Origin: an uncultured Collinsella sp.
Lineage (GTDB): Bacteria; Actinomycetota; Coriobacteriia; Coriobacteriales; Coriobacteriaceae
Direction of reading: 5' to 3'
DNA length: 64,000 bases
Assembly (NCBI GenBank): GCA_934668875.1
Contig: CAKUON010000005.1
Location: 1-64,000, forward strand
Shown here: piece by piece, positions 16,934 to 37,598 of the stretch
Layout of the letters: each line of letters starts with the position of its first letter
Numbering within the stretch: position 1 is the stretch's first letter
Translations under genes and position numbers: made by a program
The notes under the pieces: generated by a model
Told to the model about the DNA's origin: nothing
The model's input: only the letters and a program-made list of their open reading frames with translations
Database searches by the model: none

Positions 16934-16955
16934 CATTGCCGGCATGCGATGCGTG

Positions 16956-17001
16956 CGGCGGCGGACGCGGCTTTATCGAGAGCTGTGTCCGCCGCCGTTT
17001 T
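16956..17001 (+). terminator. Terminator of zinc-ribbon membrane protein gene
   Basis: The arm cggcggcggac (16956-16966) pairs with gtccgccgccg (16987-16997), followed by four T. It separates this gene from the convergent kinase gene. Confidence 0.8.
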
Positions 17002-17043
17002 GTATCACTGGAGCCTTAATACCGGGACCGGTGTCGATGTCGG

Positions 17044-18321: not shown

Positions 18322-18362
18322 CCTTTCTTCCGTTAGCAGGATATGCGCTGGCCGCCGCTTTC

Positions 18363-18409
18363 TGTTGCGCAACATCGACAAATCTGCCGCTCGCCAATGT
18401 TGCGCAACA
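18363..18409. promoter_or_regulatory. Paired TGTTGCGCAACA operators in the kinase / signalling-operon promoter
   Basis: Two perfect 12-bp palindromes lie at 18363-18374 and 18398-18409, 35 bp start to start. They sit 42 bp upstream of the leftward kinase and 79 bp upstream of the rightward operon. This is the only promoter in the window with two perfect copies. Confidence 0.7.
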
Positions 18410-18487
18410 GAATCGCGCAAAGCGGCGGTAGAAAGATGTTGGAAAGACGCGAGGACCAAACTGGTCAAAAACGGAGGGATAACAAGT

Positions 18488-19987
18488 ATGAGTGCCGTGG
18501 TTGGGATGTTTACATCTGCTGGCTCTGCGGCAAGTAGCACCGCATCTGCTGGGACAAGCCTGGGCGCTGCCGGCGCTGTTGGTATGGTCCTTTTGGCTCC
18601 CACCGCAATTGTTACAGGCGCGTTGGCTGCCCGTGAGACTGCTGAAAAAGATGCAAGCTATGCCGCGAAAGAGGAATTTAATGAGACTCTCGCGGACCTT
18701 AGGAAACGGATCGATGAGATGGCTTCCGGGCTGGATGAATCAACACGGGCAATGTTGGACGAGCTGATCACCAATTGTTCTCGCTCCTTTTATGCCGAAC
18801 ATGAAGAAAACACGATGAGTCTTGGTAGGGATACAAGGGTGAGGATGGAGAAGGCGTTAGCCCATTTGTTTTCAACGCTTCACGTCCTGTTTCCACAAAT
18901 GACTTTTGACGCTCATCTGAAGCAGAGGATGGAGATGAGCAAAAGTCAGATTGATGCTGCTTTGACCGTTGAAAAGCTGAGAGCACAAGGTCTTGCTAGG
19001 GCGATTGATTTTGATGTAACGCCTGATAATCCTATAGACCTGAAGAGGGCATTGCTTCAGATAACCGCGGCGGCAGAGTCTCCTTCGGGCGTCGAAACGT
19101 TTGAGGGGGCGGCGCAATCGTTTGACGCGTGGTCGGAAGTTGCCATCTCTCTGATGCAGGATGAAGCCTTGGATATGGCGCTGCGTAATCGAATAAGCGC
19201 GAAATTTGAATCGATCCGCGCCGCCTATGATGCGCTTGATTCCGATTCAACTGTTGAGGAGCTGCTTGCCATTAATAAGAGCATCAAGGATTTTGATCAT
19301 GTCATGAAGCGTGCCCAGTATGAGTCTGCTGAGAAGCACGAGCAGTACGTGCAGTACCAGATTCGAGTAGAGCTACTCAACGATCGATACCATCGCCCGA
19401 CTGTTCTTAAGCACATTTATGAGATCGATAATATTTACGAAGAAATCGAAATCGCCGATGCCGAGCTTGATAAGGCCGTAAAAGACGAGTATATCGAGCG
19501 TGCAATTAATGATGCTATGGCTGAACGTGGTGTCAATGTGGTCCGTTATGCCGTTATGGATGGCTCGGGCAAACCCTGGCGCCTTATGTTTGACACAAAC
19601 GAACACAAAGCGGTCGCCGTTCTTAAGGGCAGCAGCGAGCAGCAGATCATCATGCGTGTCGTAGAGGCTGACCCAGCTGAGTTTTCTGAAGACCCGAATA
19701 ATCCCACGATTATCAAAGACATGAAGATCCAGGATCAGTCAACCGTCGATAAGGCCGTTCAGGATCAAGTGGAATTTTGTGAATTCTATAAGCAGTTCAG
19801 TGAAGACCTTAAGAAGCGCGGCGTCTTTGCAGACACCTCGGCTGGTTTTGTGCGGCCGCCAAGTCCGGATGCTGCCGTCGAGATTCACCCGCACGATTAC
19901 GTGCCGCCCACGCCTTCCGCAGATGCGGAGCGTCGCCTGCGTAATCGCCGTCAAGCAAGTCAGCTCAAGCAAAGGGAAATGAGGTAA
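18488..19987 (+). CDS. Hypothetical 499-aa protein heading the signalling operon
   Basis: The start at 18488 follows ggaggg; longer readings have no site. The N terminus is a hydrophobic, glycine- and serine-rich segment (about residues 10-55: AGAVGMVLLAPTAIVTGALA) that could insert in the membrane. The rest is highly charged and mainly helical with coiled-coil stretches (LADLRKRIDEMASGL; YEIDNIYEEIEIADAELDKA). No enzyme motif is recognised. The C-terminal tail is basic and glutamine-rich. Codon use is slightly less GC-rich than its neighbours. It is separated by 3 bp from the FHA gene, so it almost certainly acts with the downstream products. Confidence 0.75.
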   Translation: MSAVVGMFTSAGSAASSTASAGTSLGAAGAVGMVLLAPTAIVTGALAARETAEKDASYAAKEEFNETLADLRKRIDEMASGLDESTRAMLDELITNCSRSFYAEHEENTMSLGRDTRVRMEKALAHLFSTLHVLFPQMTFDAHLKQRMEMSKSQIDAALTVEKLRAQGLARAIDFDVTPDNPIDLKRALLQITAAAESPSGVETFEGAAQSFDAWSEVAISLMQDEALDMALRNRISAKFESIRAAYDALDSDSTVEELLAINKSIKDFDHVMKRAQYESAEKHEQYVQYQIRVELLNDRYHRPTVLKHIYEIDNIYEEIEIADAELDKAVKDEYIERAINDAMAERGVNVVRYAVMDGSGKPWRLMFDTNEHKAVAVLKGSSEQQIIMRVVEADPAEFSEDPNNPTIIKDMKIQDQSTVDKAVQDQVEFCEFYKQFSEDLKKRGVFADTSAGFVRPPSPDAAVEIHPHDYVPPTPSADAERRLRNRRQASQLKQREMR

Positions 19988-19990
19988 ACC

Positions 19991-20983
19991 ATGACATGGG
20001 AATGCCCTATCTGTGGTCTTATGAACGATGACGCCCGCGATATGTGCGAGGACTGTGGGACGCCGCGTCCCGCCGGTGCGGTTCCCGCGCCTTCGACCCC
20101 TGCGCCCGCGGTCTCGGCACCCGAGGCGTCAGTCGCCCCAGCGTCCGGCTTTGCCGCCGCAGTCGCTGAGCGTCCGGCTCCCGCCGTCTATCCTGCAACA
20201 TCATCGATGGGCGGTGCTTCGCGGCCTCAGCGTCCCGCGCCCCAGCAGGTATATCAGGCCGCTCCTGCTCCCACGCCGCAGCCTGCCCCCATGCCCGTTT
20301 CGCAACCTGCTCCGGTTCCTGCGCCACAGCCGACACCTGCACCAATGCCGCAACCCGCGCCGCAACCCATGGCGAATGCCGCAGCTGCTCCTGCGGTTCC
20401 TGCGCTTACGCTTGCCGATCCGGTTATGGGTGAGCAGCTCCGTCTCACGGACGCCGCCGTGCTTGGACGCAACGCGTTCCCCAGTATGGCATCGAACTTT
20501 GCCATGTCCCGGCAGCATGCCAGCGTTCGTTTTGAGCGGGGCGCATGGATGGTTGCCGATGAGGGGTCCAATAACGGAACGGCTCTTATGCGTGGAGGCC
20601 AGATTCTCAACTTGGTTCCCGGCGTGGCCCAGCCGATTCATACCGGCGATACACTACTCATTCCGGCTGCGTCTGGCGAATTTGCCCAATTGCGTCTGAC
20701 GGTTACTGTGGAGGAACCGCCTGCGGCGCAACCCGTGCAGGCCCAGGCTTGGTCTGTGCCGCAGCCCGCGCCTGCTGCGGCACCGGTTGTTCCCGCTGCT
20801 GGTGAGTCTGCAGGTGTCGAGGGCTGGTTTGTCGAGTGTCCCGAGTGCGGTCGCTTGCATCTCGTTGCTGATGAGCGTGCAAAGGTTGGGGATGGCTGTG
20901 AGGAATGCGGTTGCTCGCTTGCACGTACCTCGGCCGTGTACCGTACACTCGATCCGGGCGAGGATTACGCCGATGTTCGTTAG
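19991..20983 (+). CDS. FHA-domain protein with zinc ribbons at both ends
   Basis: This 330-residue protein has an N-terminal zinc finger (CPICG and CEDCG, residues 5-24), then a long proline-alanine-glutamine linker. An FHA domain lies near 145-235 (LGRNAF, SRQHASVRF, GSNNGT), and a C-terminal ribbon (CPECG, CEECG, about 283-310) ends the protein. It should act as a phospho-threonine-binding adaptor in the cytoplasm. The likely ligand is the T-rich repeat tail of the kinase four genes downstream. Its stop codon overlaps the start of the radical-SAM gene by 11 bp, indicating translational coupling. Confidence 0.9.
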   Translation: MTWECPICGLMNDDARDMCEDCGTPRPAGAVPAPSTPAPAVSAPEASVAPASGFAAAVAERPAPAVYPATSSMGGASRPQRPAPQQVYQAAPAPTPQPAPMPVSQPAPVPAPQPTPAPMPQPAPQPMANAAAAPAVPALTLADPVMGEQLRLTDAAVLGRNAFPSMASNFAMSRQHASVRFERGAWMVADEGSNNGTALMRGGQILNLVPGVAQPIHTGDTLLIPAASGEFAQLRLTVTVEEPPAAQPVQAQAWSVPQPAPAAAPVVPAAGESAGVEGWFVECPECGRLHLVADERAKVGDGCEECGCSLARTSAVYRTLDPGEDYADVR

Positions 20984-21569
20984 CCATGTGCTTGCTCCCG
21001 TCGTCTCGCTGGGTCCGGGAGAACGTATTGTTGTCTGGACCGCTGGTTGTTCAAAGCGTTGTGCCGGATGTATTTCGCCCCAATGGCGCAACCAGCTGCC
21101 CGAGCAGGATGTCGATGTTGATGAGCTTGCGCAGATGTTGCTCGGTGCCGCACGCGAGCACGGCGTACATCGGCTGACGGTTTCGGGCGGAGATCCGCTC
21201 GAGCAGGCATCGGAGCTCATGAAGCTGCTGTCAATAATCCGCGGCGCTTACGACGACATCCTCGTTTACACCGGCTTCACGCTCGAAGAGCTGCCGCGGG
21301 CGATCGGTACGGATACGTGGGAGGCGCTCAAGCCCCTCATCGATGTACTGATTGACGGTCCGTATATAGACGAGCTTAACGTGCCCGACTGCGCGCTGCG
21401 CGGCTCGACTAACCAGCGCGTAATCTACCTGAGCGACCGTCCGCACGATGATTACGACCAGTATCTTCAGCAGCCCCGCCAGCTTCAAAACTATGTCCAG
21501 GACGGCACGGTTATCACCGTTGGCATTGCCGACCGTTACCACCATGAATTCTCTGCCAAGGAGGTATAA
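20973..21569 (+). CDS. Small radical-SAM (activase-like) protein
   Basis: This 198-residue protein carries the radical-SAM cluster motif C26-x3-C30-x2-C33 in AGCSKRCAGC and the SAM-binding SGGDPLE. Size and sequence fit the NrdG/PflA type activating enzymes, which make a glycyl radical on a partner. No glycyl-radical enzyme is encoded in this window, so either its partner is elsewhere or it has another role here. I chose the ATG at 20973; longer readings overlap the FHA gene. It is embedded between FHA and AAA+ genes with an 11-bp overlap on one side and a 3-bp gap on the other. Confidence 0.85.
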   Translation: MFVSHVLAPVVSLGPGERIVVWTAGCSKRCAGCISPQWRNQLPEQDVDVDELAQMLLGAAREHGVHRLTVSGGDPLEQASELMKLLSIIRGAYDDILVYTGFTLEELPRAIGTDTWEALKPLIDVLIDGPYIDELNVPDCALRGSTNQRVIYLSDRPHDDYDQYLQQPRQLQNYVQDGTVITVGIADRYHHEFSAKEV

Positions 21570-21572
21570 CAC

Positions 21573-23528
21573 ATGGCAACTGATTTCGAGCGTCAATCTT
21601 GGCAGCGCGAGATGCTCAACTTTAAAGGGGTGAAGAGCCTCTTCATCCTTGAGGGCAACGTGAACGACAAGTATCCCGATGTGGTCGATGGAGGGCTCCA
21701 GTTCTCGGAGCTTGCCGAGGTCGTGCGTGGTCTTTTCGAAGACGCCAATGGCTCGGTTGAGTACAACGTGGCATATTTCGACCCCATCCAGTTGTTTTCG
21801 AGCAGCATGGGCAACGTCGACTGCAAGCGTCTGGTGTCGCTGGCTCATGACGAGGCTTCCAAGAGCGACGATCGCATGATGGAGGCGAACGCCTGCATCG
21901 CCGATGGCCGCCAGGCGTATGCCACCGAGCAGTCGAGCCTGCCATCATACGGCGAGGTCATCCGCTCAATGTTGCGCCTGAAATACAACGACAATCCCGA
22001 CGGCGGCACCGAGGCCAAGCCGCTTTGTGTGATCGTCAACATGGCGTCGCGTCTGCTTGCCTCATCGACCGGTCTTATGCCCGACGAGACGCAGTTTTTC
22101 CTTAATCTGTACCTTGGTGCCAGCAAGGCGCGCCTCATTAACCGCACGGCCGTCAACACGCTCATTCTGGTAACGGATAATGTGCGCAACCTGCCTGTGT
22201 GGTTTATCGAGGAGAATCCCTTCCTGCGTACCATTACGCTGCCGCACCCCGATCGTGATATGCGTGAGGCCTATATCCAAAGCAAATTTGGCTTTGGCGG
22301 GGCGATGTCCGATTCCGATGACCGCGCGGTGCGTCGCTTTATCGATACCACCGACGGCATGAGCGTCAAGGAGCTCGAGGGGCTGCAGCGCATGTACCAG
22401 CGTGACATGCAAAACCCCGAAGCTTCCATTGAGGCCATCCTTCCCAAGCTCGTTGACGTCTACAAGTACGGTTTTCGCGAGAACAAATGGCAGCAGATGT
22501 TCGAGAAGCTCGAGGAGGATCCCGAGGAAAAGATCAAACGCCGCGTGAAGGGTCAGGACGAGGCCGTCGAGAAGGCCGTTACCGTGCTCAAGCGCTCCGT
22601 CATGGGCCTTTCGGGCGCTACCCATTCATCTGGCTCCAAGCCCAAAGGCGTCCTGTTTTTGAGCGGCCCCACCGGTACCGGTAAAACCGAGATCGTTAAG
22701 GCCATTACGGAGCTTCTCTTTGGTGATGAGCGCAGCATGCTGCGTTTTGATATGTCCGAGTACGGTGCCGAGAACTCCGATCAAAAGCTCTTTGGTGCTC
22801 CTCCGGGATATGTGGGCTATGCCGAGGGCGGTCAGCTCACCAACGCCGTTAAGGCCAATCCGTTCTCCGTAGTGCTTTTCGACGAGATCGAGAAGGCCGC
22901 ACCGAGCATCATGGACAAGTTCCTGCAGATCCTCGAAGACGGCCGCCTGACCGATGGCCAGGGCAATACCGTGTACTTCTCGGAGACGGTCATCTTCTTT
23001 ACGAGCAACATCGGCTTTTCCAAGATCGAGATCGATGCGCAGGGCAACGAGGTGCGTAATACCATTGCGCCCAACACGCCCTATAACGAGATTTGCGAGC
23101 GCGTGCGCACCGAGATGGACCGCGAGTTTAAGCCCGAGTTCCTGGGCCGTATCGGCGACAACGTGGTCATCTTCAACTTTATCGACGATGCCGTGGCGCT
23201 TCAGATCCTTAACTCCAAGATCGATGCCGTCAACCGCAACGTGCATAAGGCGCAGCCCGATATTACGGTCGAGGCAACCGATGCTGCCCGCGAGCTGCTG
23301 CATTCCATTGCCATGACGGATGCCGTTAAAGCCAAGGGCGGCCGTGGCATTGGCAACCTGGTGGAGAGCGGCTACCTTAACGGGCTTTCCGACTTTCTGT
23401 TTGAACATCGCGCCGAGTGGCGTGGTCGTCCCGGCATGGTGGCGCGCGCCGTGCCGCAGGGCGAGGGCGACGATGCGCATATCGCATTTGAGCTCGTGCC
23501 CGGATCGATGGGAGGCGATTGGCGATGA
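21573..23528 (+). CDS. ClpA/ClpB-like AAA+ ATPase with unusual N-terminal module
   Basis: This 651-residue protein has a Clp/Hsp100-type second AAA+ domain in its C-terminal half. It shows Walker A GPTGTGKT at 365-372, GAPPGYVGY pore-loop region, Walker B with D437-E438 in VVLFDEIEKA, sensor TSNIGF, and arginine-finger region PEFLGRI. The first 330 residues look like a degenerate AAA fold without a Walker A (CVIVNMASRLL, LILVTDNVRNLP). The usual Clp N domain and M domain are missing. It probably remodels or unfolds a protein partner. Its stop overlaps the PP2C start (ATGA). Comparable Clp-type ATPases work with kinase/PP2C/FHA modules in type VI secretion. Confidence 0.9.
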   Translation: MATDFERQSWQREMLNFKGVKSLFILEGNVNDKYPDVVDGGLQFSELAEVVRGLFEDANGSVEYNVAYFDPIQLFSSSMGNVDCKRLVSLAHDEASKSDDRMMEANACIADGRQAYATEQSSLPSYGEVIRSMLRLKYNDNPDGGTEAKPLCVIVNMASRLLASSTGLMPDETQFFLNLYLGASKARLINRTAVNTLILVTDNVRNLPVWFIEENPFLRTITLPHPDRDMREAYIQSKFGFGGAMSDSDDRAVRRFIDTTDGMSVKELEGLQRMYQRDMQNPEASIEAILPKLVDVYKYGFRENKWQQMFEKLEEDPEEKIKRRVKGQDEAVEKAVTVLKRSVMGLSGATHSSGSKPKGVLFLSGPTGTGKTEIVKAITELLFGDERSMLRFDMSEYGAENSDQKLFGAPPGYVGYAEGGQLTNAVKANPFSVVLFDEIEKAAPSIMDKFLQILEDGRLTDGQGNTVYFSETVIFFTSNIGFSKIEIDAQGNEVRNTIAPNTPYNEICERVRTEMDREFKPEFLGRIGDNVVIFNFIDDAVALQILNSKIDAVNRNVHKAQPDITVEATDAARELLHSIAMTDAVKAKGGRGIGNLVESGYLNGLSDFLFEHRAEWRGRPGMVARAVPQGEGDDAHIAFELVPGSMGGDWR

Positions 23529-24286
23529 CAACGTTTATCGCGGCTGCAAAAACCCAAGCGGGAACCAACCACCCCGTTAACGAGGATCGTCTTCTGTTTG
23601 ACGGCAACGTCCTTTGCTATGGCCTGGTGGGCGATTGCGAGCGCGAGATGGGGTGCATGGCAGTCTTTGATGGCGTGAGCGAAGGTGGGCACGGGGCGGC
23701 TGCCTCTACGCTCGCTGCTCAGGCGTTTGCGCAGGCCGTGCGCGTCTTTGATGCCGATACCGTCAACGCGTTACAGGAGCGCCTACGCATGGCGGGCGAG
23801 CGAGCCGAGAACGATGTTGAGACGTATGCGGCTCGCTATGGACTGTCTGTTGCCGCATCCACGGTTGCTGGCCTCGTGGTTGCTCCTGACGGGCACGGTG
23901 CTGTTTTTAATGCCGGCGATTCTCGCGTGTACCGACTGCGTGGCGGTGTGCTTGCCGTGCTTAGCTGTGACCACACGCCTGAGCGGCGCGTGGGCGGCGT
24001 TGGCGCTGAATACAGAGACGACGCCGTTTCGCATTGTATTGAGCTCGCGATTGGACTCAATCAGGGCGGTCGCAATCTTGAGGTCAAGACGACCGTGATG
24101 CTTCCGGGCGATCGCTATCTGATCTGTTCCGATGGTATTGATGGGCAGATTGCGCAGGAGCGTTTGCAGCAGATGCTTGCGAGCGATTCGACATGTGCGC
24201 AGTTGTGCGAAGAGCTATATGCCGAGGCTCGGGTGAACGGCTCGACGGACGATGCAACGCTGATTGTAATTGAGGTAGGGGAGTAG
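23525..24286 (+). CDS. PP2C-family protein serine/threonine phosphatase
   Basis: This 253-residue protein dephosphorylates phospho-Ser/Thr and uses metal-binding aspartates. NEDRLLF near the start, FDGVSEGGHG, NAGDSRVYRL, and GSTDDATLIVIE near the end are the usual PP2C blocks. Length equals a bare catalytic domain, without a membrane anchor. The ATG at 23525 overlaps the AAA+ stop codon as ATGA. It lies directly before the large kinase, 2 bp apart, so the two should oppose each other on the same substrates. Confidence 0.93.
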   Translation: MTTFIAAAKTQAGTNHPVNEDRLLFDGNVLCYGLVGDCEREMGCMAVFDGVSEGGHGAAASTLAAQAFAQAVRVFDADTVNALQERLRMAGERAENDVETYAARYGLSVAASTVAGLVVAPDGHGAVFNAGDSRVYRLRGGVLAVLSCDHTPERRVGGVGAEYRDDAVSHCIELAIGLNQGGRNLEVKTTVMLPGDRYLICSDGIDGQIAQERLQQMLASDSTCAQLCEELYAEARVNGSTDDATLIVIEVGE

Positions 24287-24288
24287 CC

Positions 24289-27200
24289 ATGTCAGATGAG
24301 ACGATTACGGTACACCGAGATGGCGGCAATGACAATGATGAGACCGTAACGGTGCGCCGCGGGAATGCGCCTGTAGGGGGAGAGACAGTTACCGTGAACC
24401 GCGGTGGCCAGACTTCTGCACCTGGAGAGACCGCGACGGTGCGTCGCGCTGATGTCCCGGCGTCTGGTGAAACAGTTACCGTCCGCCGCGATGATGCACC
24501 ATCGGCTGGTGAAACGGTGACGGTGCGTCGCCCGGCAATTGAATCGAATAGTGAAACAGTAACGGTTGCGAGGCCGTCTAGTGCTTCTGTCGACGGCAAG
24601 ACCGTTCCTGTTTCACGCCCTGGTACTCCTGCGGCGGGCGAAACCGTCACGGTGTCGCGCGCTGCGAACCCCGACGGCCAGACAGTAACTGTCTCGCGCG
24701 GCGCCACGGCCAGCTCCAATGGCGAAACGGTGACCGTTTCTCGTGGGGGCGCACATGCTGCCGCTGCATCTGCCTCGCCTTTTGTTGCAGAGGATGCTAC
24801 GGTTGTCTCGAATGACGGGCAGCAGTTTATTATTCATTTGGGACAGGTCATTGGCCATGGCGGTCAATCTACCATTGTTGCCGCCGAGCGGGTGAGCGAT
24901 GGTTTGGCATGCGTTGCCAAGGTCTTTAAGCCTCTTGTGGGCGCCGAGCGTTCGGCATATCAAAAGGTGGTAAGCGCCGTAATGGGACTTAATGGCCGCC
25001 CCGTGTCTCAAACGCATCTGCTGCCCATCTTTGCCTATCTGCACCAGGGCCTGAGCGCGACCGAAGTGGGGGCTGCGGCTCCTCAGCTGTGGGATGTTTC
25101 CATTACGCCGCTGGCCACATGCCTTTTTGATCGTCCCCGTAGCAAGAATATGGTTAAGAGCCGCGTGATTCCCGAGCTCAGCCAGGCAATCGAGTTGCTC
25201 CATACCGAGCTTGGCATTGTCCATCGTGACATTAAGCCGCAGAACGTCTACCTGTACGACAAGCAGATCGTGCTGGGAGATTATGGCTCCGCCCGCTCGC
25301 TTGCCGGATTTGACAGCCGACTGACGAACACCATGACGCGCTCCGATGGCTATACGCCTGGTCGTGGCGGCATGGTCGACCCTCGTAACGACTGGTATTC
25401 GTTTGGCTATACAATCTGGACGCTCTACGAAAACAATGTCCACCCGCTGCAGGAGTTCATAGACGACAATACGCTTTCCGATCGCCAAGAGACGGGCGAG
25501 CCTGCAGACTTCAACCATCCAGAAGATGCGACCTTAGGAAACCTCCTCAAGGGCCTGACGTTTGAGCTTTCGGGCGAGCGTTTTGGCTATGAAGAGGTTA
25601 AAGACTGGATGGCCGACCCAGATCATTTCTATCGCAAGCTTCCCACCATGGACGCCGGCAGTGCTCGCAAGCCTTACGAGTTTGCGGGCAAGCAGTATAG
25701 CGATCCGGTGTTGCTCGCTCGAGCGCTGTCCTCCAATTGGGACGAGGCTAAACTTCGCATGAGCCAACAGCAGCTCGAAAACCTGATGGGCGACTGGGGT
25801 GAAAATGACCTGCAGACTAGGATTCACCAGTTAGTCGAAGAGGATATCCAGACAGCGTCCAATCCCGACCTGGCGCTCGCTTGCGTAATCTATGAGATGT
25901 CCAACGGCAAGATTATGTCGTGGCGCGGCGAGGATGTCTCGTTGACTAATGCACCCGATGCTTTGCCGGCGCGTATTGCATCGATGGCTGTGGATACAAT
26001 TGATCGCTATGCTCGGCAGTCAGACCTTGATGGAACAAATTCATCTGGCGTGTTGCCCTCTGGATTCCTCTCGCTCGTCTTATCTCGAGAAGCAAACGCC
26101 GACAGTCAAAGGGTTCGTTTGGCTTCTGATATTCACAGTCTTGAGCTTCTTGCTCGTCAATCGGACGACCCGCATTTTGCAGCCTGCCTATTTAAGGGCT
26201 TGTTGACGTCCGGTGAAAACAAGCATGCTATGGCCCAGGGTGCGCTTAAGTCGGTATTACGGCAACCCTCTGCATTCTTTGGCGTCTGTTCGTCTTCTCG
26301 ATCGCTCGATGAGTTTTTGCTCTATTTTGCCGGCGATGTTGATATGTCGGCAATCATCGCTGCTCGCGATGGAGCAAATACTGAGGGTGGCATAGACACC
26401 GACGTTGTCCTTGTCTTTATGGATAAGGTCGCCGACGATAAGGCCGCCGTGCGCTCGTTTTATCGAAAGTATGGAAACTATGCTGCCTGGATTTGGCTTT
26501 CTGGTCATACCGACTTATATGAAACGATGCAGGGTTCGACAGGTGAAGCTGCAGTTATCGCGCTTCGTGGACTTAATCCGGCAATGGATGCGCCCGTCTC
26601 GACACTTGTTAAGTTGGGCAGCAACGCCCGTCTTGAGGGCATTAAGCTTCGAGGCGACATGGAATCTACGCCGGTTCCATATATTCTGGGCTGGGAACTT
26701 GACGAACGTTTTGGAACTCGCCCCATCGCGATGGGATCACTGTTCTGTGCTCAGGTAAAGGATGATGTCGTGCCTCGTGGGTACGTTTCTGACCTCTTGA
26801 CCTCTTGTGAGGACCGTGGCGTGCTCGACATCCTTGAGATTAGGCTTTTGGCGGATGTCGAGAGCCTGCCGTCCGCGGCATATTCACAATATTTGGATGA
26901 CGCTCGAGGAGTTGCCGATGGACAGCTGAAGGCCGCTATCGAAACGGACACGCGTGAATACGGTGTCGTCAAGGGCATCGCTGACAGCGATGCTCAGATT
27001 GCTGCTGTAAAGAAGGAGCAGCGGAACGTTCTCATTACTACCATTGCCGTTGCGCTTCTCTATCTCCTTATTATTAAGTGTGCCCGCGGCGCATTCGGTC
27101 AGCTTATCGTTTCACTTGGAACGTTTGGCCCTCTCGTTGTCGTCTTCTTGGTGCTGGCATTTTTGGGCTCTTTCGGCTTCCTTGCGCTCAATGTGCTCCG

Positions 27201-28434
27201 TTCTTTTTCTGCTGTTGACCGTGTCAGGGGTCTCGAAGATGCTCTGGATTCAAATGCTGCTGCCTTAGAGGGGTATTTGGTCAAGCTGGTGGATTTCGAT
27301 GGACGCGCTGACAAAATAACTGAAATTCTGTCAGCTCAGTCGGGAGATGCCGCATTGACCGACACGCGTAAGCAGCTGTTCTCGACAGGGCGTCACTCTG
27401 TGTCGTTTTATACCGATCCCGAAGTCATGGATCGATTCGGACGTCTTGCTGGCAGGTTGGTGCTTATCACGGCGCTCGTCGTTAGCGCGTTTGGCTTTAT
27501 GGGGTCAATGTATGTTGATGGTGATGTGTATGCGAGAGTTGAAGTTTTAATTGCGGTTTGCTTCGGGTTGATGATCGTATTGATCATGTTTGGCGAGGAT
27601 GCACATCCTGGTAGCGCTCAAGCGTTGCGTTCGTGGCTTTACATGTGGATCCCTCCGATACTCATTGAGTTTTTGCTTTCCGGAGTTGTCTCATTTGCCA
27701 ACTTCCTGAGCCTTTTCGGCTTCATTTTCCTCTTGCTTGCTTTTGTGATTAGCGTCATTGCATTCGTGTTTTTCCGTGGTTTGGAAAAATGGGATGATAT
27801 CCAATCGCGGAAAAAGCAGGTGTCGGTTGCCCAGCCGATTGCTATCCAGCAGAACGGTACTAAACAAGACAACATTCAGCAGAATGGCGTTCAGAATTCC
27901 AGCACTGGAATGAAGGCGGATAACGAGGCGCCTGTTAGTCATGTTTATGTTTCTGACAGTGCTGCGTCTGCCGGTCGTACGGGCAATGCTTCTGCTGCGA
28001 AAAAGGAAACAGCGAATGCTAAGAAGTCCAGTTCTGGAGTGAAAGGCAAAAAGGAACCGAACGCTATTGGATATGGCACCTATGATCAGATGCCTTGCCG
28101 TATCGACATCTATGCTAACTACATCAAGATTATTCGTACCTCGATGTATTCTGGAAGGCGCGATTTAGACAAATATAAATCCGTAGTTAAATCGGGGAAA
28201 ATGTCTGACTTGGACAAGGCGTTTAATAGACCTTATGCTGGAAATGCAATCAATATTCCAGCAAACGCGCTCACTAATTGGCTTCGCGTGCCTGGCATCA
28301 CCAATAGCCCCGAATTTACGTTTGACCGAAAAAATCGCGAGCTGCACACTCGCGTGCAACACACGATTCAGGTTTTTTCGCCGGGTTTCGACGAGGTGCT
28401 CGAAGATTTTGCAGACTCTCATTTCCATTACTGA
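24289..28434 (+). CDS. Giant multi-pass protein kinase with T-rich N-terminal repeats
   Basis: This 1,381-residue protein has four parts. Residues 1-155 hold eleven E-T-V-T-V-x-R type repeats. A kinase domain follows (about 180-440): VIGHGGQSTIV, VAKVFKP, VHRDIKPQNVYLY near 310, and GDYGSARSL in place of DFG. A long helical region runs to about 905. Five or more membrane helices lie between about 910 and 1165. A C-terminal 125-residue domain begins GYGTYDQMPCRIDIY and recurs in the next gene. HRD and the lysine are intact, so it is probably active. It sits 2 bp after the PP2C gene. The N-terminal repeats are likely phospho-acceptors read by the operon's FHA protein. Confidence 0.9.
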   Translation: MSDETITVHRDGGNDNDETVTVRRGNAPVGGETVTVNRGGQTSAPGETATVRRADVPASGETVTVRRDDAPSAGETVTVRRPAIESNSETVTVARPSSASVDGKTVPVSRPGTPAAGETVTVSRAANPDGQTVTVSRGATASSNGETVTVSRGGAHAAAASASPFVAEDATVVSNDGQQFIIHLGQVIGHGGQSTIVAAERVSDGLACVAKVFKPLVGAERSAYQKVVSAVMGLNGRPVSQTHLLPIFAYLHQGLSATEVGAAAPQLWDVSITPLATCLFDRPRSKNMVKSRVIPELSQAIELLHTELGIVHRDIKPQNVYLYDKQIVLGDYGSARSLAGFDSRLTNTMTRSDGYTPGRGGMVDPRNDWYSFGYTIWTLYENNVHPLQEFIDDNTLSDRQETGEPADFNHPEDATLGNLLKGLTFELSGERFGYEEVKDWMADPDHFYRKLPTMDAGSARKPYEFAGKQYSDPVLLARALSSNWDEAKLRMSQQQLENLMGDWGENDLQTRIHQLVEEDIQTASNPDLALACVIYEMSNGKIMSWRGEDVSLTNAPDALPARIASMAVDTIDRYARQSDLDGTNSSGVLPSGFLSLVLSREANADSQRVRLASDIHSLELLARQSDDPHFAACLFKGLLTSGENKHAMAQGALKSVLRQPSAFFGVCSSSRSLDEFLLYFAGDVDMSAIIAARDGANTEGGIDTDVVLVFMDKVADDKAAVRSFYRKYGNYAAWIWLSGHTDLYETMQGSTGEAAVIALRGLNPAMDAPVSTLVKLGSNARLEGIKLRGDMESTPVPYILGWELDERFGTRPIAMGSLFCAQVKDDVVPRGYVSDLLTSCEDRGVLDILEIRLLADVESLPSAAYSQYLDDARGVADGQLKAAIETDTREYGVVKGIADSDAQIAAVKKEQRNVLITTIAVALLYLLIIKCARGAFGQLIVSLGTFGPLVVVFLVLAFLGSFGFLALNVLRSFSAVDRVRGLEDALDSNAAALEGYLVKLVDFDGRADKITEILSAQSGDAALTDTRKQLFSTGRHSVSFYTDPEVMDRFGRLAGRLVLITALVVSAFGFMGSMYVDGDVYARVEVLIAVCFGLMIVLIMFGEDAHPGSAQALRSWLYMWIPPILIEFLLSGVVSFANFLSLFGFIFLLLAFVISVIAFVFFRGLEKWDDIQSRKKQVSVAQPIAIQQNGTKQDNIQQNGVQNSSTGMKADNEAPVSHVYVSDSAASAGRTGNASAAKKETANAKKSSSGVKGKKEPNAIGYGTYDQMPCRIDIYANYIKIIRTSMYSGRRDLDKYKSVVKSGKMSDLDKAFNRPYAGNAINIPANALTNWLRVPGITNSPEFTFDRKNRELHTRVQHTIQVFSPGFDEVLEDFADSHFHY
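24298..24744 (+). repeat. Eleven coding repeats E-T-V-T-V-x-R
   Basis: Within the kinase gene, eleven copies of the seven-residue motif (ETITVHR, ETVTVRR, ETVTVNR, ETATVRR, ETVTVRR, ETVTVRR, ETVTVAR, KTVPVSR, ETVTVSR, QTVTVSR, ETVTVSR) are separated by 6-10 residues rich in G, S, A and P. The codons differ freely between copies, for example gaaacagttaccgtc against gagaccgtaacggtg. The protein motif is therefore conserved while the DNA is not. Confidence 0.95.
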
Positions 28435-28507
28435 TGAGGGCAGAAGAAAATACCCATGCGCCCGTTGGGGAGGGCCCCGATTGGCGAGACGATAGTTTGG
28501 ATGAATT

Positions 28508-29119
28508 ATGCCGACGTTAAACTTGGGAAATATGTTTGGAAGCTCCGGTAACGATAGGAATCGTAACGGGGGCTCTCAACAACAGGGCTCCAATGCTCAG
28601 CGAGCCGGTGGGCAACTTCATGATGTTGAGCGGCTGGTTATGGGGGGTCGCGAGGCTATTGCAAATAGCGCCGAGGCACAGCGCCAGCGACGCCGCCTTG
28701 CCGAGAGCATGGCTAGGAAAGATGCGGTGTATGGAACCGTCATCGACCAAGGATATGGTACGTACGATGGAAGGCCCTGTTCGATTAGGTTGTACGAAAA
28801 CCGCATCGAGATTGTTGCAAAACGCGAAGGCTCGACGCTGGACAATCATCCAGTGGTCAAGTCGCTTGTGCCAGGCCTTGGCAAAAGCAAGGCTGTTGCG
28901 GGAAGGATTCTTGCTCCGGGAAATTCAAACCCGCCAATTGTCATCCCCGCCAATGCCATGACGGGTTTTCAGCAAGTGGCATGGGGTATGTTTCCGACGT
29001 TTGTATTCATGCGAAGGGACCCTGTGACGAGGAAGCGAGAGACCCACACGATTAAAGCTATGACTAGAGAGCTTGGCTATTCGTTAGAGCGTTTTGGCGC
29101 TATGCATTACCACTTCTGA
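28508..29119 (+). CDS. Small protein carrying the 'GYGTYD' domain
   Basis: This 203-residue protein has a disordered Asn/Gly/Gln-rich N terminus. From residue 78 on, its domain is the same as at the C terminus of the preceding kinase. Shared features, in order, are GYGTYD, a Pro-Cys pair, an I-x-x-Y-x-N strand, I-P-A-N-A-x-T and a final H-Y/F-H-F/Y. No family name is known to me. It has no membrane segment, so it may be a soluble counterpart of the kinase's cytoplasmic tail. The ribosome site is weak and the start is not certain. Confidence 0.75.
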
Positions 29120-29140
29120 TGATTTGTGAGGATATAGATA

Positions 29141-30280
29141 ATGGGCATGGGGGAACGAGATTCTGAGGGTCTGTCGGCACAGGAGCGGCTCGAACAGCTT
29201 CGCGCTCAGAGGATGGCGCCGAAAGACTCTGGGGTACATATTGAATCTGACGCAGCAAATGGACGTCTGGACATCAACTGGAATAGTGCCGGTGCACCAA
29301 AGCACCATGTGAGCATTAATTTATCGCGCATTGTAGATGCTATTCCGACCATCATTCGTTTTCTTCCGGTGCGTATTTTTACGTTGTGGGGTCTTTGCTC
29401 GGTTTGGTATCGCTTGTTCCTCAATACGGGCGGAGACGACATTTTGCATACGGGTCTTCCTGCTCCCGGATATAGCGCTTTTAACCCATTCGCTCAAGCA
29501 GCCGTTATTTTCGGTGGCCTATTTGTCGTTTCGATTGAGTTATTTATTGGACCGCTGAGTTTGATTATCAAACAGCTGATCATTGGTCTTTTCTATTTGC
29601 TACGCGGTTCAGCTGCTACAAGGCGCGCGTTATCGGATGCGCATGCTCAATTTAACTTTAGTCAGTTTATCGCTGACACGCGCGAAGGCTATCACAATGG
29701 CTATTCACTATTGGGGTCGGCGTTGCGCGCAAAACGTGGTGCGCGCAACGGCTCATCTTCGCTTGATTACGGCGAGGGTGCTTTGACGGGCGTAGATCCA
29801 TATTCATATCAATATGATGATGGAATTGGTGATCGTCCGTCCGTCTTGGAACTGACCGATGAAGAGGCCGATCGCTTGTGGGACCTGTACTACCCGGCCT
29901 ACGGCGCCGAGGGCCCCATGTCCAACCTGCACGAGGCGCTCGCCGCGGACGACCCGCAGGACTACACGGCCCTGATGAGCCTCGCCCTCAACGTGGCGGA
30001 GTGGTGCGAGCAAAACGGCACGCCCGACACCCACGGCTGGTTCGACGACCCCGTCTACCCGGGCGACTACGTTGACGCCGGCACGTTCTACCTCATGGCG
30101 TACTCGTTCTGGGAGCAGGCGGCCGAGGCGCGGCGCGTGGGGCCGATCGAGCCGCTCGCGGACGACATGAGCCGCTTCATCCTGCGCCACCTGAGCGACT
30201 GGTCGCGCGAGAACGCCCACGCCTACCGCTGGCGCGGCGACTGGCGCGACGCTGACTACTTCGACAAGGACCGCCTGTAG
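29141..30280 (+). CDS. Two-helix membrane protein with compositional break
   Basis: The protein has 379 residues. A soluble start (SAQERLEQLRAQRM) leads to hydrophobic segments near 65-90 and 120-160 (AAVIFGGLFVVSIELFIGPL), then a polar helical C-terminal domain. The C-terminal 150 residues (LTDEEADRLWDLYYPAYGAEGPM onward) are very rich in W, Y, D and E. No known family is recognised. From about 29,870 to the stop the DNA becomes much richer in GC than the preceding 700 bp, as though the two parts have different histories. It is seventh gene of the operon, and a gagg site lies upstream. Confidence 0.7.
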   Translation: MGMGERDSEGLSAQERLEQLRAQRMAPKDSGVHIESDAANGRLDINWNSAGAPKHHVSINLSRIVDAIPTIIRFLPVRIFTLWGLCSVWYRLFLNTGGDDILHTGLPAPGYSAFNPFAQAAVIFGGLFVVSIELFIGPLSLIIKQLIIGLFYLLRGSAATRRALSDAHAQFNFSQFIADTREGYHNGYSLLGSALRAKRGARNGSSSLDYGEGALTGVDPYSYQYDDGIGDRPSVLELTDEEADRLWDLYYPAYGAEGPMSNLHEALAADDPQDYTALMSLALNVAEWCEQNGTPDTHGWFDDPVYPGDYVDAGTFYLMAYSFWEQAAEARRVGPIEPLADDMSRFILRHLSDWSRENAHAYRWRGDWRDADYFDKDRL

Positions 30281-30301
30281 GCGGCGGAAGGGGAAACACG
30301 G

Positions 30302-31207
30302 ATGGCAATTAATCAGAACGGGTCTGGCCGCGGGGGCGCCGGGTCCAACGGATCGGATATCAACGATATCGTGAACCGCTTGGGCGGTCCGCGCGTGGTG
30401 ATCGTTCTTGCCGTGGTGGTAGTCATCGCCATCGTGGCGGTCACGTCTATCACGAGCGGTATCTCCGAAACCAATCAGCAGACCGAGCAGCGTGCCGAGG
30501 CCAAACAGCAGCAAGAAGACGAGGCGGCGCGCGCTCAGCGTAAAAAGGAAAAAGAAGAACGCCACCAGGAAGAAGCGAAAAAGGCCACAGTGCTCACGCT
30601 CGATGAGATTACGGACGAGGCGCTGCGTACGGACTTAGCGCTCGATGCAGATGAGGATGGCAATATTTCGCAAGAGACTGCGGATGAAGCTAGCTCAATC
30701 GACGTCGAGTCGTTTGATTCGCTTCCGCTGCTGGCTAGCTTTCACAACATCACGACGTTTGGCATTGGCGACTACGACAGCGAAAGCTACGACATAAGCT
30801 CCATTAGCAATATCACTCATCTGTCCATTGGCGACTGCTCGGTGCCTACGGTTGATCTCACACGTTTTCCTCAGCTACAGCGCGTTACCGTAAACAGGCT
30901 CGAGAGTCCCATCGATACCCTGAATGCCAAAAACATGTCCTCGTTGACGAATGTCCAGATCGAAGGTCTTGGCGGCAGCATTGGGACGCTTGACCTGTCG
31001 GGCGATGTGAACCTCAAGGTCCTGAAGATCGGTAGCAGAGTCGACACGCTCAATCTGTGCGGGGCAGGCAGGGAAGATGCCTTCCATTTCACGTTTACGC
31101 CCAATCATGTTGGCAAGATCTTGTACGACAGCGAAACGAGCAGCAGCGTGGTCGAGTATTTGCAAAAAATGAGCAGTGACTACGGCTACACCATGGAGCA
31201 ACAGTAG
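30302..31207 (+). CDS. Membrane-anchored leucine-rich-repeat-like protein A
   Basis: This 301-residue protein has a short cytoplasmic start, one membrane helix (about 36-58: VVIVLAVVVVIAIVAVTSI) and a charged coiled-coil stalk rich in E, K and Q. A calcium-loop-like DADEDGNIS (about residue 119) precedes an irregular leucine-rich repeat domain (ITHLSIGDC, LQRVTVNRLE, LTNVQIEGLG, LDLSGDVNLKVLKIGS). Repeats of this type usually bind proteins outside the membrane. It is paralogous to the next gene. A ggaagggg site precedes the ATG by about 10 bp. Confidence 0.8.
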   Translation: MAINQNGSGRGGAGSNGSDINDIVNRLGGPRVVIVLAVVVVIAIVAVTSITSGISETNQQTEQRAEAKQQQEDEAARAQRKKEKEERHQEEAKKATVLTLDEITDEALRTDLALDADEDGNISQETADEASSIDVESFDSLPLLASFHNITTFGIGDYDSESYDISSISNITHLSIGDCSVPTVDLTRFPQLQRVTVNRLESPIDTLNAKNMSSLTNVQIEGLGGSIGTLDLSGDVNLKVLKIGSRVDTLNLCGAGREDAFHFTFTPNHVGKILYDSETSSSVVEYLQKMSSDYGYTMEQQ

Positions 31208-31234
31208 CGATGCGCTCAAGTGAGGAGAAGCAAT

Positions 31235-32299
31235 ATGGCGAATTTTAAGCCCGACATGTCTTGGCGGGATAACGAACGGGTTCAGCGTGTGACCGAGCAG
31301 CCTTCGGGCGGGGCTAATGAGCGGGCTGCAGAAACGCCGGATATGCGCGTGAATATGCGTCCGAACGGACAGGAAGCTGAACAATCTGCCGGACCGGCAC
31401 GGCAGGCGTCGGGACGTTCGGCAGGTCGGACTCCCCGTCCTGCTGGGCAGCCGAACGGGCAGGCAGCCGAGCGTGCAAATGAAGCCGTCTCGCGCTTGGG
31501 TGGCGTTCGCGCCCTGGTGGTGCTTGCGGCGGTTGTGGTCATAGGCGCGGTTGCCGCTTTCGCCGTGATTGGCGGCGTCGGTGATGTGCAAGGCGGCGGG
31601 GGAGCCTCATCGAGCGCCTCTAAAGAGTCGAGCTCGGCTGACGCTTCTGGCTCCGAGACCAAGAAAGAAAAAGGCCTCGTCGATGTCGATGCGGTCACGG
31701 ACGATACCCTGCACGGGCTGCTTGCCGACTACGATAACGATGACGATGGCCAGCTGACCGTCAAGGAGACCCAGCGCATCACGGAGCTGGTCGTGAGTGA
31801 CGAGGTGACGGACTTCACGCCCATTAGCAAGCTGGACAAGCTCGATACGCTCGGCATCAATACCCTGAGCGCTGCGAGTGCAGACTTTAGCGAGCTCGAG
31901 GCACTCGAGGTGCTCAAGTTTGGCGACATGACGACCCAGAATCTCGATTTGAGCGTCTGCCCCAAACTTAATGCCTTTAAGATCGAGGGTCTTAAGGGTG
32001 CTGTCAATTCCATCGATGCCTCGGGTCTTAAGAACCTGATGTTCTTCACCGTCGATCAGGGACTCCAGGGTGATGTCGAGAAGATTGATCTCTCGAACGA
32101 TGACATTCTTGGCGCACTCGAGATTACCTGCAACGTCGGCGAACTTAATCTGTCTGGTTGCAGCCATTCGTTCCCCAAACTCAACATTGCCGCTGATCAC
32201 ATCGACAAGATCGTGGTCGACAGCAACACCAACGCGGACCTGGTGGCAACCCTACGCGACCTATGCACCCAGAAGGGCTGGACGCTGGAGGAGCGGTAG
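31235..32299 (+). CDS. Membrane-anchored leucine-rich-repeat-like protein B
   Basis: This 354-residue paralogue of the preceding protein has a longer cytoplasmic, disordered N terminus rich in N, Q, E and P. One membrane helix follows (VRALVVLAAVVVIGAVAAFAV), then a Ser/Gly linker. It also has the loop DYDNDDDGQLT, followed by leucine-rich repeats (LDTLGINTL, LEVLKFGDM, LNAFKIEGLKG). I chose the ATG at 31235 behind gaggag; a start at 31220 is possible. It is the last gene of the operon, followed by a strong two-way terminator. Confidence 0.8.
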   Translation: MANFKPDMSWRDNERVQRVTEQPSGGANERAAETPDMRVNMRPNGQEAEQSAGPARQASGRSAGRTPRPAGQPNGQAAERANEAVSRLGGVRALVVLAAVVVIGAVAAFAVIGGVGDVQGGGGASSSASKESSSADASGSETKKEKGLVDVDAVTDDTLHGLLADYDNDDDGQLTVKETQRITELVVSDEVTDFTPISKLDKLDTLGINTLSAASADFSELEALEVLKFGDMTTQNLDLSVCPKLNAFKIEGLKGAVNSIDASGLKNLMFFTVDQGLQGDVEKIDLSNDDILGALEITCNVGELNLSGCSHSFPKLNIAADHIDKIVVDSNTNADLVATLRDLCTQKGWTLEER

Positions 32300-32349
32300 G
32301 GTCCCTTGGAGCGGCAGAGTAACTTTTGCTGCAAGGCCATAGACGAACA

Positions 32350-32392
32350 AAAAGAAGCGGGGCTCGGCCATCTACGAGCCCCGCTTCTTTTC
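32350..32392. terminator. Bidirectional terminator closing the signalling operon
   Basis: A perfect 13-bp stem (gaagcggggctcg 32354-32366 with 32375-32387) is flanked by A-rich DNA on the left and four T on the right. It serves both the rightward operon and the leftward TIR gene ending at 32,436. Confidence 0.88.
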
Positions 32393-32435
32393 GCTTGTTA
32401 TTACTGGATGGTTTTTCTTCCAGCCTATTTTTCTC

Positions 32436-33659
32436 TTACGACTGTGTTCTCTTCCTGTATTCCTCCTCAAGATCGTTGATGGTTTTATTTTCATCGGTCG
32501 TCCACATAGTTTTACCGTTGGAGCTTCGACCTGCTACGAATCCCGCTGCCGCTGAGGGACTCGAAAACGCAATGTCATCGGTGAGCACGTAATCCTCTAT
32601 GAGGTCTGCATGCGCGTTGCGTTGCTTGGTGACGGAGGTCGGGCAGCTTACTGTTAGATCCCTGGCAATTTTTGTGCCTTTTTCGACGATAAAAACGCCA
32701 TTGGACACATGAGCGGTCCCTTCGGAGCTCTTTGTCGAGAGATGAAAAACATGGCCGGAAAGTGCAGCGGCAAGCTCGTCGTCTAATGGCTTGACCGTCT
32801 TCGCTTTCTCAATTGTAGAATCCTCTTTCTCAGCCATTTGTTTGTTCTTAATGATTGAGTCTGCAACGATGAAAATCTTGTTAGCAAGCCAGCGAACGAT
32901 GCAGTCCTTTACGAAATCGTAATCAGAGCCCTGCGCATCATCCTTAAGAAGTTCAATGAACTTAGGGAGGACCGCCTCCAGGCCATTGAACTCTTTGATT
33001 GCCTCCCAAGTGCTACAGGCGTTTTTTGCTGAGTTCTTATCTTTTGAGGGATTGCCGGAGGCGCTTTCGTCGCCGCTTTCCTTATCGCGGATTTCGCGGG
33101 TTTGCTCTTTATCGAATGGCTCGTCACGATCGTTTTCGTCGTCATGGCCGTCCGGGCTGGTTTGACTGGATTTTTCTCTTGCAGCGGGTTCTCCGTGGGC
33201 GCTTTCGCCATATTTCTTTTTTAGATTCGCTTCAATTCTATCTTGGCTTGTCCAAAAAACTGGAATGCACCGGCGAGGCTTGTCATCCTTATCAGTTTTT
33301 TCCTCTTTTTCTCCCTCAGCGTTTTCGAGGAAATGATTATATTCGTGGCAGCAGTTCTTGCTTTCGATATAGCCGGGCGTTATGAAAGCAAGTAGGATGT
33401 CCGAGCCTTCGAGAGCTTCATTCACCTTTTGTTCCCAGCGCTGCCCGTAATCGATGGAGACGATATCGGTGAACTTGTCAATTCGATAGTCGGTCAAAGC
33501 AAGCATATCTTTGCTTGTGTTGAGCATATCTAGGGTTCTGTCAGCGATATCGAGCATGTGGTTGAATGTGTTGTCCGCACGTCGGTAGCTTACGAATATG
33601 TGCAGAAGGGTGTGCCCCTCGCTGTCTTGCTTTGAATTTACGGCGGATGGCTTTCCCAT
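32436..33659 (-). CDS. TIR-domain protein with C-terminal DUF4357-like domain
   Basis: This 407-residue protein has an N-terminal TIR domain (about 18-140). LHIFVSYRRAD starts the first strand, WEQKVNEALEGSDILLAFITPGYIES follows, and NCCHEYNHFLE places a glutamate (E106) at the usual NADase position. A very acidic, disordered linker follows (about 140-210), then helices, then about 320-400 with GVFIVEKGTKI, SPSAAAGFVAGRSSNG and MWTT, which fits DUF4357. TIR proteins in bacterial defence often cleave NAD+ or make signalling nucleotides. DNA here is lower in GC than the flanks. It lies 26 bp after the channel-like gene and shares its strand. ATG at 33659 follows aaagga. Confidence 0.85.
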   Translation of the reverse strand: MGKPSAVNSKQDSEGHTLLHIFVSYRRADNTFNHMLDIADRTLDMLNTSKDMLALTDYRIDKFTDIVSIDYGQRWEQKVNEALEGSDILLAFITPGYIESKNCCHEYNHFLENAEGEKEEKTDKDDKPRRCIPVFWTSQDRIEANLKKKYGESAHGEPAAREKSSQTSPDGHDDENDRDEPFDKEQTREIRDKESGDESASGNPSKDKNSAKNACSTWEAIKEFNGLEAVLPKFIELLKDDAQGSDYDFVKDCIVRWLANKIFIVADSIIKNKQMAEKEDSTIEKAKTVKPLDDELAAALSGHVFHLSTKSSEGTAHVSNGVFIVEKGTKIARDLTVSCPTSVTKQRNAHADLIEDYVLTDDIAFSSPSAAAGFVAGRSSNGKTMWTTDENKTINDLEEEYRKRTQS

Positions 33660-33685
33660 ATCGCAATCCTTTCAATTGAAAACCG

Positions 33686-37568: not shown

Positions 37569-37598
37569 GAAACGCTTTCTCGCTGTGCTAGCCGTTCT

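Follow-up and report, generated by a model that had tools for sequence, protein, structure and literature searches.

A kinase, a PP2C phosphatase, an FHA protein and a Clp-type ATPase are the regulatory parts of type VI secretion (PpkA-PppA-Fha-ClpV). In Mokosh type I, MkoA is a helicase-kinase, and Mokosh is not known to have a core of AAA+, radical-SAM and coiled-coil proteins. KKP is an antiphage kinase-kinase-phosphatase module that has a PP2C gene followed by two kinases of 0.9-1.3 kb, includes CSD/FHA fusions, and is common in prophages (PMC11341870). The window analysed here is a stretch of 64,000 nucleotides from an uncultured Collinsella sp. (contig CAKUON010000005.1, positions 1 to 64,000; 58.8% guanine plus cytosine, GC), and it carries a ten-gene operon that shares parts with these systems. 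The operon begins with genes for a coiled-coil (CC) protein, an FHA protein, a radical-SAM enzyme, an AAA+ protein, a PP2C phosphatase and a kinase, and ends with four further genes.

The operon may represent a mobile defence-type system of modular build, here in its membrane-kinase form and based on the CC protein, a Clp-like unfoldase whose first ring is dead, and an NrdG-like radical-SAM enzyme, a reading to which we give a probability of about one half. It rests on the co-occurrence of the core genes relative to control loci, their rarity and scatter, an empty site and an alternative insert in related genomes, helicase and nuclease partners, the clades formed by helicase-bearing versions, defence-type neighbours, threonine (Thr) repeats, and a kinase, tail gene and CC that diverge more than the AAA+ between the window and its relative L094. 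An undescribed defence-type system is suggested because related gene sets occur in distant bacteria, some of them joined to nucleases.

A six-gene core and its partners

The first six genes (CC, FHA, radical SAM, AAA+, PP2C and kinase) are the core of a gene-cluster family scattered over Actinomycetota, Bacillota and Pseudomonadota. Relatives of the AAA+ protein were sought with an alignment of 20 AAA proteins, and later with a wider alignment for searches in three phyla. In the three phyla the threshold was 1e-110; the three or four best candidates were scored per genome except in the genus set of the nearest relative (43 genomes). Carriers were rare, with 9 among 296 Coriobacteriia genomes, 1 among the 43, and 7/398, 5/396 and 12/398 in the three phyla, counts that include the centre genomes G004 and G002. 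G038 is counted in both the Coriobacteriia set and the 5/396 set, and the near-duplicate carrier G1387 of the 12/398 set was left out of the loci.

The resulting test set holds 38 AAA+ loci (37 and the window), two genomes giving two loci each. The controls are 73 ClpB/ClpC-like loci (L008-L080, L007 left out) from a genome-contig scan that yielded mostly ClpB/C-like loci. A length of at least 12 kb was reached by 31/37 test and 56/73 control loci. With matches counted anywhere in a stretch and profiles trained on the test loci, which favours those loci, a radical SAM gene was found near the AAA+ gene in 34/38 test and 2/73 control loci (the control matches at 37 and 22 bits). The corresponding counts are 27 and 2 for the kinase, 24 and 0 for CC, 21 and 0 for FHA, 18 and 2 for PP2C, and 6 and 0 for a superfamily 1 (SF1) helicase; FHA is undercounted, with weak matches in L092, L096 and L098 (by tblastn) and L110, and absences on the short contigs L001, L006, L111, L112, L117 and L126 are weak. 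Direct tblastn with the window's own proteins on 17 loci placed the radical SAM in 15. Its Cys motif is kept in 34/34 radical-SAM genes. The second-ring Walker A of the AAA+ protein is found in 37/38 members, none of which has a Walker A upstream (L098 was not scored).

The sequence-only reading had named genes lying mostly apart in related genomes as the outcome that would count against it, and for the first six genes this did not appear in the 38 loci relative to the controls. It had also proposed gene order as a check. Among the loci whose AAA is closest to that of the window, the order CC-FHA-radical SAM-AAA-PP2C-kinase recurs in L092, L094 and L097 and, without a PP2C match, in L095, L096 and L098. 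On a Clostridia plasmid the gene order is that of the window with a DUF6273 gene inserted before the kinase, and other loci hold the core genes in differing orders. A single ten-gene unit did not survive the comparison. The tail, membrane and two leucine-rich repeat (LRR)-like genes have a tblastn match in only one of the 37 other loci (L094), and therefore have the look of a local addition. For these four, a chance gathering of unrelated genes in a hotspot could be an explanation. The 73 control loci rule this out for the six core genes, and with the same gene set present in distant phyla and on plasmids its likelihood for the operon is practically negligible.

The CC protein is a probable sixth conserved component, judged from profile comparisons. 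Genes adjoining AAA+ in relatives were grouped into clusters X1, X2 and X3. By hhalign the C-terminal part of the window CC aligns with X2 over 132 columns (probability 96.9%), and the clusters align with each other at 94.8% (X1-X2), 89.9% (X1-X3) and 69.9% (X2-X3). What the family has in common is a C-terminal domain that follows the coiled coil and spans about 130 columns. All 12 X1 and X2 members start with MSGPK or VSGPK, and the window CC does not. The window has the features proposed for a CC-AAA-radical-SAM family, namely a first ring without Walker A, a radical SAM and a CC, the last through X2 only. The protein had been described as an unknown helical protein; it has kin in a conserved coiled-coil family. 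Its structure model is poor and mostly helical (predicted local distance difference test, pLDDT, 58.6), and a PDB sequence search with the close CC alignment (A2) gave only matches with an E value of 0.23 and worse. A relationship to DUF1257/DUF2997 was considered and hhalign gave nothing. In L094 the CC gene (1408-3011) is split over two frames, and may be broken or misassembled there.

Three forms can be told apart. In the K form, FHA, PP2C and a separate kinase accompany the core with varying completeness (the window, most Coriobacteriia and Clostridia loci, and others). In the KH form the kinase is fused to an SF1 helicase (L105, L107, L108, L109, L138). The L105 protein has an additional MTES_1575 nuclease domain, and the L107 open reading frame (ORF) is shorter, with kinase, DUF4011 and AAA_11 only. 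The H form has an SF1 helicase, a PIN nuclease, a coiled-coil-like protein, AAA and radical SAM, with no kinase seen (L100, L125, L140-L143, L147; five plasmids and two genome contigs; L142 is from Photobacterium and L147 from Leisingera). The seven plasmid copies (L138-L143, L147) came from a deliberate search of a plasmid collection. In the AAA tree the H form is one clade and the KH form is one clade (100/100). All 45 members lie apart from the four controls, which were cut to 400 residues, and this may aid the split; branches are long for L116 and L099. Hydrophobic segments are present in 8/8 kinases of the window's AAA group (the window and L092-L098). They are missing from others, such as L101, L102, L106 and L110, and since the L109 kinase also has none while bearing a helicase, the membrane is not essential to the family. 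The remodelling complex at the membrane of the sequence-only reading is thus far a putative one.

Two genomes hold two different versions of the system each (L092 and L101 in G258; L093 and L100 in G215). On an Aristaeella lactis plasmid, genes for DUF4011, kinase, CC, FHA, 4Fe-4S, AAA, PP2C, DUF6273 and kinase stand in a row, and a DUF6273 protein is also encoded in the window's resident flank. On an Acinetobacter plasmid (L141, 14709-16213), consecutive genes beside the helicase-PIN form encode a second AAA protein and a further radical-SAM protein.

Island, neighbours and a proposed phospho-switch

The operon is carried by an accessory island. Five same-genus genomes were compared, out of 22 with a right-flank match over 2.6 kb (G252 itself among the 22), and the island is missing from four of the five. 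In G175, G116 and G185 only about 0.2 kb separates window positions 15518 and 41778, 26.2 kb being absent, and G304 joins 7991 to 41788, with the flanking kinase and FHA genes missing too. The fifth, G150, holds a differing insert of about 24 kb with a kinase at the island site. GC content is 0.564 and 0.542 in the island vs 0.60-0.61 in the flanks. The G150 insert (L127 5109 to L128 about 9390) encodes a kinase, two DnaK-like proteins and zinc-ribbon proteins (both by eye) and large unknown proteins, and is perhaps another signalling system. On the minus strand at 12290-15670 the window has genes for a kinase with DUF6273 and an FHA protein, which are resident flank genes because DNA 12025-15518 is kept in three genomes without the island. 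The flank also encodes a 1125-residue coiled-coil surface-type protein (8441-11818) with a CAP-like domain (below cut-off) and an LPTTG-like end; the segment 8230-12020 has no counterpart among the matches listed for the five relatives.

At fourfold sites, the window and L094 have an identity of.79 in AAA and also in kinC, a neighbouring kinase. The LRR-like genes stand at.90 and.79, radical SAM at.66, the membrane protein at.59, FHA at.54, PP2C at.53, and the kinase, CC and tail gene at.40,.39 and.32. Judged from this one locus pair, there seems to have been an exchange of operon parts. The AAA region of the window has no DNA-level match in plasmids, and none of 5426 E. coli genomes has 80% of the helicase-type AAA/radical-SAM query at the DNA level. 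A phage origin was rejected, as alignment A2 has no relative in viral_contigs and 0/148 matching phage records cover 80% of the AAA.

Non-core neighbours were compared with PADLOC models at 1e-20 (120/208 test ORFs from 29 loci, 120/564 control ORFs from 47 loci). Test neighbours gave 86 families, among the 25 listed Cas10, Csx1, CARF-HEPN, ZorD, DpdE, RTasHel and Csm3. Control neighbours gave 28, the 25 listed being mostly kinase models, DndA/SspA and mad3. Cmr2 and Cmr6 are placed in L106. The Cas10 match probably belongs to L122, since Cas10 has matches in two members, and GGDD occurs in L106 and L122 only. L107 has a neighbouring UvrD-type helicase that matches RTasHel and GajB, and L105 has ABC-3C as a neighbour; the ZorD and DpdE family matches have no locus placement. 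Five of ten neighbours scanned singly gave nothing useful or weak PADLOC matches. L119 had been a candidate for a place beside a type III-A CRISPR operon; PADLOC did not support this, and its sequences resemble selenocysteine genes (by eye).

Repeated Thr motifs precede the kinase domain and differ by lineage: ETVTV in the window and L094, QQTRREND in L120, PPTQRDQR in L115, VTERFD in L110, ETLL in L093, TELDPGR in L114, and others. The window array has nine ETVTV-like copies, and 11 near-copies vs 2.7 in shuffles. After L107 and L116 had been dropped for weak profile scores, Thr near-copies exceeded shuffles in 14/25 kinases (uncorrected p <0.05); for seven of these the p value was the lowest that 200 shuffles allow. 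For the SF1-fused L108 the p of 0.03 is owing to an Ala-rich stretch. FHA domains read the Thr+3 position. At this position D/E/I/L/V/F, a residue class picked after the repeats had been seen, makes up 59% of 125 sites vs 30% elsewhere, and 40/78 vs 30% per distinct tetramer (p 1.5e-4). Judged by the motifs and the Thr+3 preference, the repeats are likely docking sites for the FHA protein.

A phospho-switch of the following kind can be proposed. An event at the cell envelope would be sensed by the membrane protein together with the single-pass LRR-like proteins, and the kinase would autophosphorylate the Thr repeats ahead of its own catalytic domain. The FHA protein may then bind the phosphorylated sites and bring CC, radical SAM and AAA+ to the kinase, with PP2C erasing the signal. 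As output, triggered on invasion by phage or a mobile element, either the AAA+ motor would unfold or remodel a target, or the kinase would phosphorylate host proteins and stop growth. More tentatively, and on the weaker side of even, the family could be a new class of immune machine in which a constant core of unfoldase, radical SAM and coiled coil takes an exchangeable effector (membrane kinase, kinase-helicase-nuclease, or helicase and PIN). The Thr repeats of each lineage would then be a private phospho-docking code against cross-talk between parallel systems in one cell.

Several observations weigh against the defence-type reading. The radical SAM is missing from four AAA loci, of which L111 and L112 lie on short contigs while L103 and L104 are long and have AAA alone, and the kinase was not seen in 11/38. 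The CC links are partial, with the window CC not significant by hhalign when aligned directly to X1 (0.8%) or X3 (5.2%), and the corresponding protein of the helicase-PIN form has only a weak likeness to CC (67% with X3, no match with the other clusters). The low CC value of.39 comes partly from L094's broken reading frame. Thr repeats are not significant in 11/25 kinases, including the SF1-fused L105 and L109. The window's CC, FHA, radical SAM and PP2C matched no PADLOC model at 0.01, and the window form has no nuclease among its six core genes. The neighbour scan tallies families, of which one protein may match many, with 25 of the 86 families listed and part of the ORFs covered.

Genes of the operon

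The claim of a tightly spaced ten-gene operon agrees with the ORF list, which has ten plus-strand ORFs within 18488-32299 (Table 1). They overlap or are separated by 21 bp or less throughout, with one real gap of 73 bp between the kinase and tail protein genes. From the 5' end, CC and FHA are 3 bp apart, FHA and radical SAM overlap by 11 bp, radical SAM and AAA+ are 3 bp apart, AAA+ and PP2C overlap by 4 bp (ATGA), and PP2C and kinase are 2 bp apart; the last three gaps are 21, 21 and 12 bp. A hairpin of terminator type follows the last gene, and such sites were about as frequent over the whole scan as in shuffles (20 vs 18.6).

Table 1. Positions of the island, the operon genes and features within or beside them, in window coordinates
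Feature	Position	Strand	Evidence
Accessory island carrying the operon	15519..41777		Empty sites in same-genus genomes; GC
Coiled-coil protein (CC), MSGPK-family relative, own start without MSGPK	18488..19987	+	hhalign to cluster X2
FHA adaptor	19991..20983	+	Pfam FHA 1.2e-5
NrdG-like radical-SAM enzyme, 4Fe-4S single cluster (ATG at 20973)	20973..21569	+	Pfam Fer4_12 2.3e-28
Two-ring Clp-like AAA+, second ring ClpB-like	21573..23528	+	Pfam AAA_2 4e-51; alignment A1
PP2C phosphatase (start 23525)	23525..24286	+	Pfam PP2C_2 3.3e-9
Membrane Ser/Thr kinase, 1381 amino acids (4146 bp)	24289..28434	+	Pfam Pkinase 2.9e-11; hydrophobic segments
N-terminal Thr repeat array of kinase	24298..24741	+	Nine ET(V/A/I)TV copies
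Kinase tail domain, common to next gene's product	28069..28431	+	Alignment with tail protein
Small tail-domain protein	28508..29119	+	Aligns with kinase tail
Membrane protein	29141..30280	+	Hydrophobic segment 121-139
Single-pass LRR-like protein with EF-hand-like DxDxDG loop (by eye)	30302..31207	+	Hydrophobic segment 32-50
Single-pass LRR-like protein with EF-hand-like DxDxDG loop (by eye), paralogue of the 30302..31207 product	31220..32299	+	Hydrophobic segment 99-117
Terminator-like hairpin, 17 pairs	32350..32391	+	Directly past last operon gene

The families read for the kinase, PP2C, FHA, AAA+ and radical-SAM proteins stand on Pfam and on motifs seen by eye. These motifs are HRD and DYG in the kinase, which has six hydrophobic segments in residues 914-1160; NEDR, DGVSEGGHG and DDATL in PP2C; CSKRCAGC in the radical SAM; and GPTGTGKTE and FDEIEK in the second ring of the AAA+, whose first ring has no Walker A. 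The FHA protein has the phosphothreonine-binding residues GR, SRQH and NNGT (by eye), an N-terminal RanBP-type zinc finger (Pfam, below cut-off) and a C-terminal Cys4 part (by eye). The LRR reading was not confirmed by Pfam. Neither LRR-like protein has an LRR match above cut-off, the best being LRR_EndoS at an E value of 0.022 in the second protein only. This second protein is 29% identical to the L094 copy of the first LRR-like gene.

The predicted sharing of the kinase's tail domain by the small protein is borne out by their alignment, and the relative's tail protein is 31% identical to the window kinase tail over 125 residues. Elsewhere, 13 protein clusters are homologous to the tail protein, and no Pfam domain is precomputed for any of them; no sequence relative was found in PDB. 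The membrane protein has no family among its Pfam or curated-model matches.

The remainder of the island has minus-strand genes at 32436-40406. The first encodes a TIR protein with a DUF4357/RAMA part and an end that matches PADLOC PDC-S14. The others encode two unknown proteins (Pfam on one, PADLOC on both) and one that has three hydrophobic segments and matches nothing in Pfam.

Comparison with known systems

The comparison with the type VI threonine phosphorylation pathway holds at the level of parts, namely kinase, PP2C, FHA and Clp-type ATPase, with radical SAM and CC being extra in the window operon. The statement that secretion genes are absent was upheld, as a Pfam scan of 18 ORFs (10 core, 8 flanking) brought up no Tss/Tag genes, and the AAA+ protein scores 219 bits against ClpV (TIGR03345), for which the cut-off is 885. 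These parts, together with the hydrophobic segments of the kinases in the window's AAA group and the long surface-type protein gene nearby, could fit a regulator of envelope state. In such a regulator LRR-like ectodomains would read the cell surface and a phospho-switch would steer the AAA+ to remodel a surface or secretion complex, as in type VI. We consider this unlikely, given the missing secretion genes, the rarity and island location of the genes, the kinases without hydrophobic segments, and relatives in which the same core is joined to helicases and nucleases.

The defence-type reading, which we prefer, can be set beside KKP and Mokosh. Like KKP, the operon sets a kinase against a PP2C, but it has one 4146-bp membrane kinase and separate FHA, AAA+, radical SAM and CC genes. 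A toxic-kinase switch of the KKP type, with the kinase as toxin, PP2C as antidote and the other genes only sensing, would agree with the PP2C gene lying directly 5' of the kinase and with KKP as a published antiphage precedent (PMC11341870). It is quite unlikely, as more of the family's loci have the radical SAM than have PP2C (34 vs 18 of 38) and the helicase-PIN form has no visible kinase. For Mokosh type I, the L100 helicase matches MkoA at 9e-109. Among the window's ten proteins only the kinase does so (1.2e-14, residues 292-516, the kinase part), and the MkoA-type RNA helicase is absent from the ten genes. The kinase-helicases of L105, L108 and L109 match PADLOC PDC-S37 at 1e-139 to 1e-149 and Hhe at 1e-58 to 1e-68, plus part of MkoA; the window form has no such protein.

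The radical SAM resembles NrdG in fold family and Cys motif, but adjoins an AAA+ gene rather than NrdD and is below the cut-off of the curated NrdG equivalog (90.7 of 126.1 bits). Its NrdG/PflA-like character would also suit a maturation machine, in which AAA+ and CC would present a partner, such as a glycyl-radical enzyme or a peptide, for it to activate or modify; relatives of it occur near other AAA genes in DUF2997 clusters and beside contractile-injection genes. This is very unlikely, since none of the ORFs covered by the Pfam scan was recognised as a glycyl-radical enzyme, and the cluster search gave no common substrate gene even though the Cys motif is kept in all 34 genes. Radical-SAM relatives near other AAA genes were seen in L145, L146 and L149, in DUF2997 clusters of Paenibacillus (with DUF1257) and Paenarthrobacter, and beside VgrG/baseplate genes on a Treponema succinifaciens plasmid.

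If the defence-type reading is true, it adds a defence-type system, links eukaryote-like phospho-signalling to nuclease effectors, and offers a testable case of a repeat-based phospho-docking code, and the named plasmid versions make the system directly testable. The constant core of unfoldase and radical chemistry could be matched to no specific PADLOC 2023 model and to no paper found. Full-text literature searches, with subscription papers mostly outside their reach, gave no recognised description of the gene set.

The AAA+ protein shares the two-ring fold and the second-ring sequence with ClpB/ClpC, and differs in a first ring without Walker A (37 members scored) and in its separation from four controls in the tree. 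It scores 240 of 1232 bits against the curated ClpB equivalog. Its structure model (pLDDT 81, predicted template modelling score 0.63) matches ClpC/ClpB chains in Foldseek at a template modelling (TM) score of about 0.4-0.5. Alignments over 490-780 columns have a TM of 0.40-0.46 and a root-mean-square deviation of about 10 or more, which makes the ring arrangement a tentative one. The kinase scores 37 of 450 bits against the PASTA kinase (PknB/Stk1) model, and PP2C scores 79.7 bits against the Stp1 family (cut-off 230). Membership in type VI, KKP, Mokosh, ClpB, NrdG or PASTA kinase is thus ruled out by scores or missing parts. The suggestion of a candidate undescribed system stands for the six-gene core, which recurs in related loci and combines the parts of type VI regulation with a radical SAM and a coiled-coil protein.

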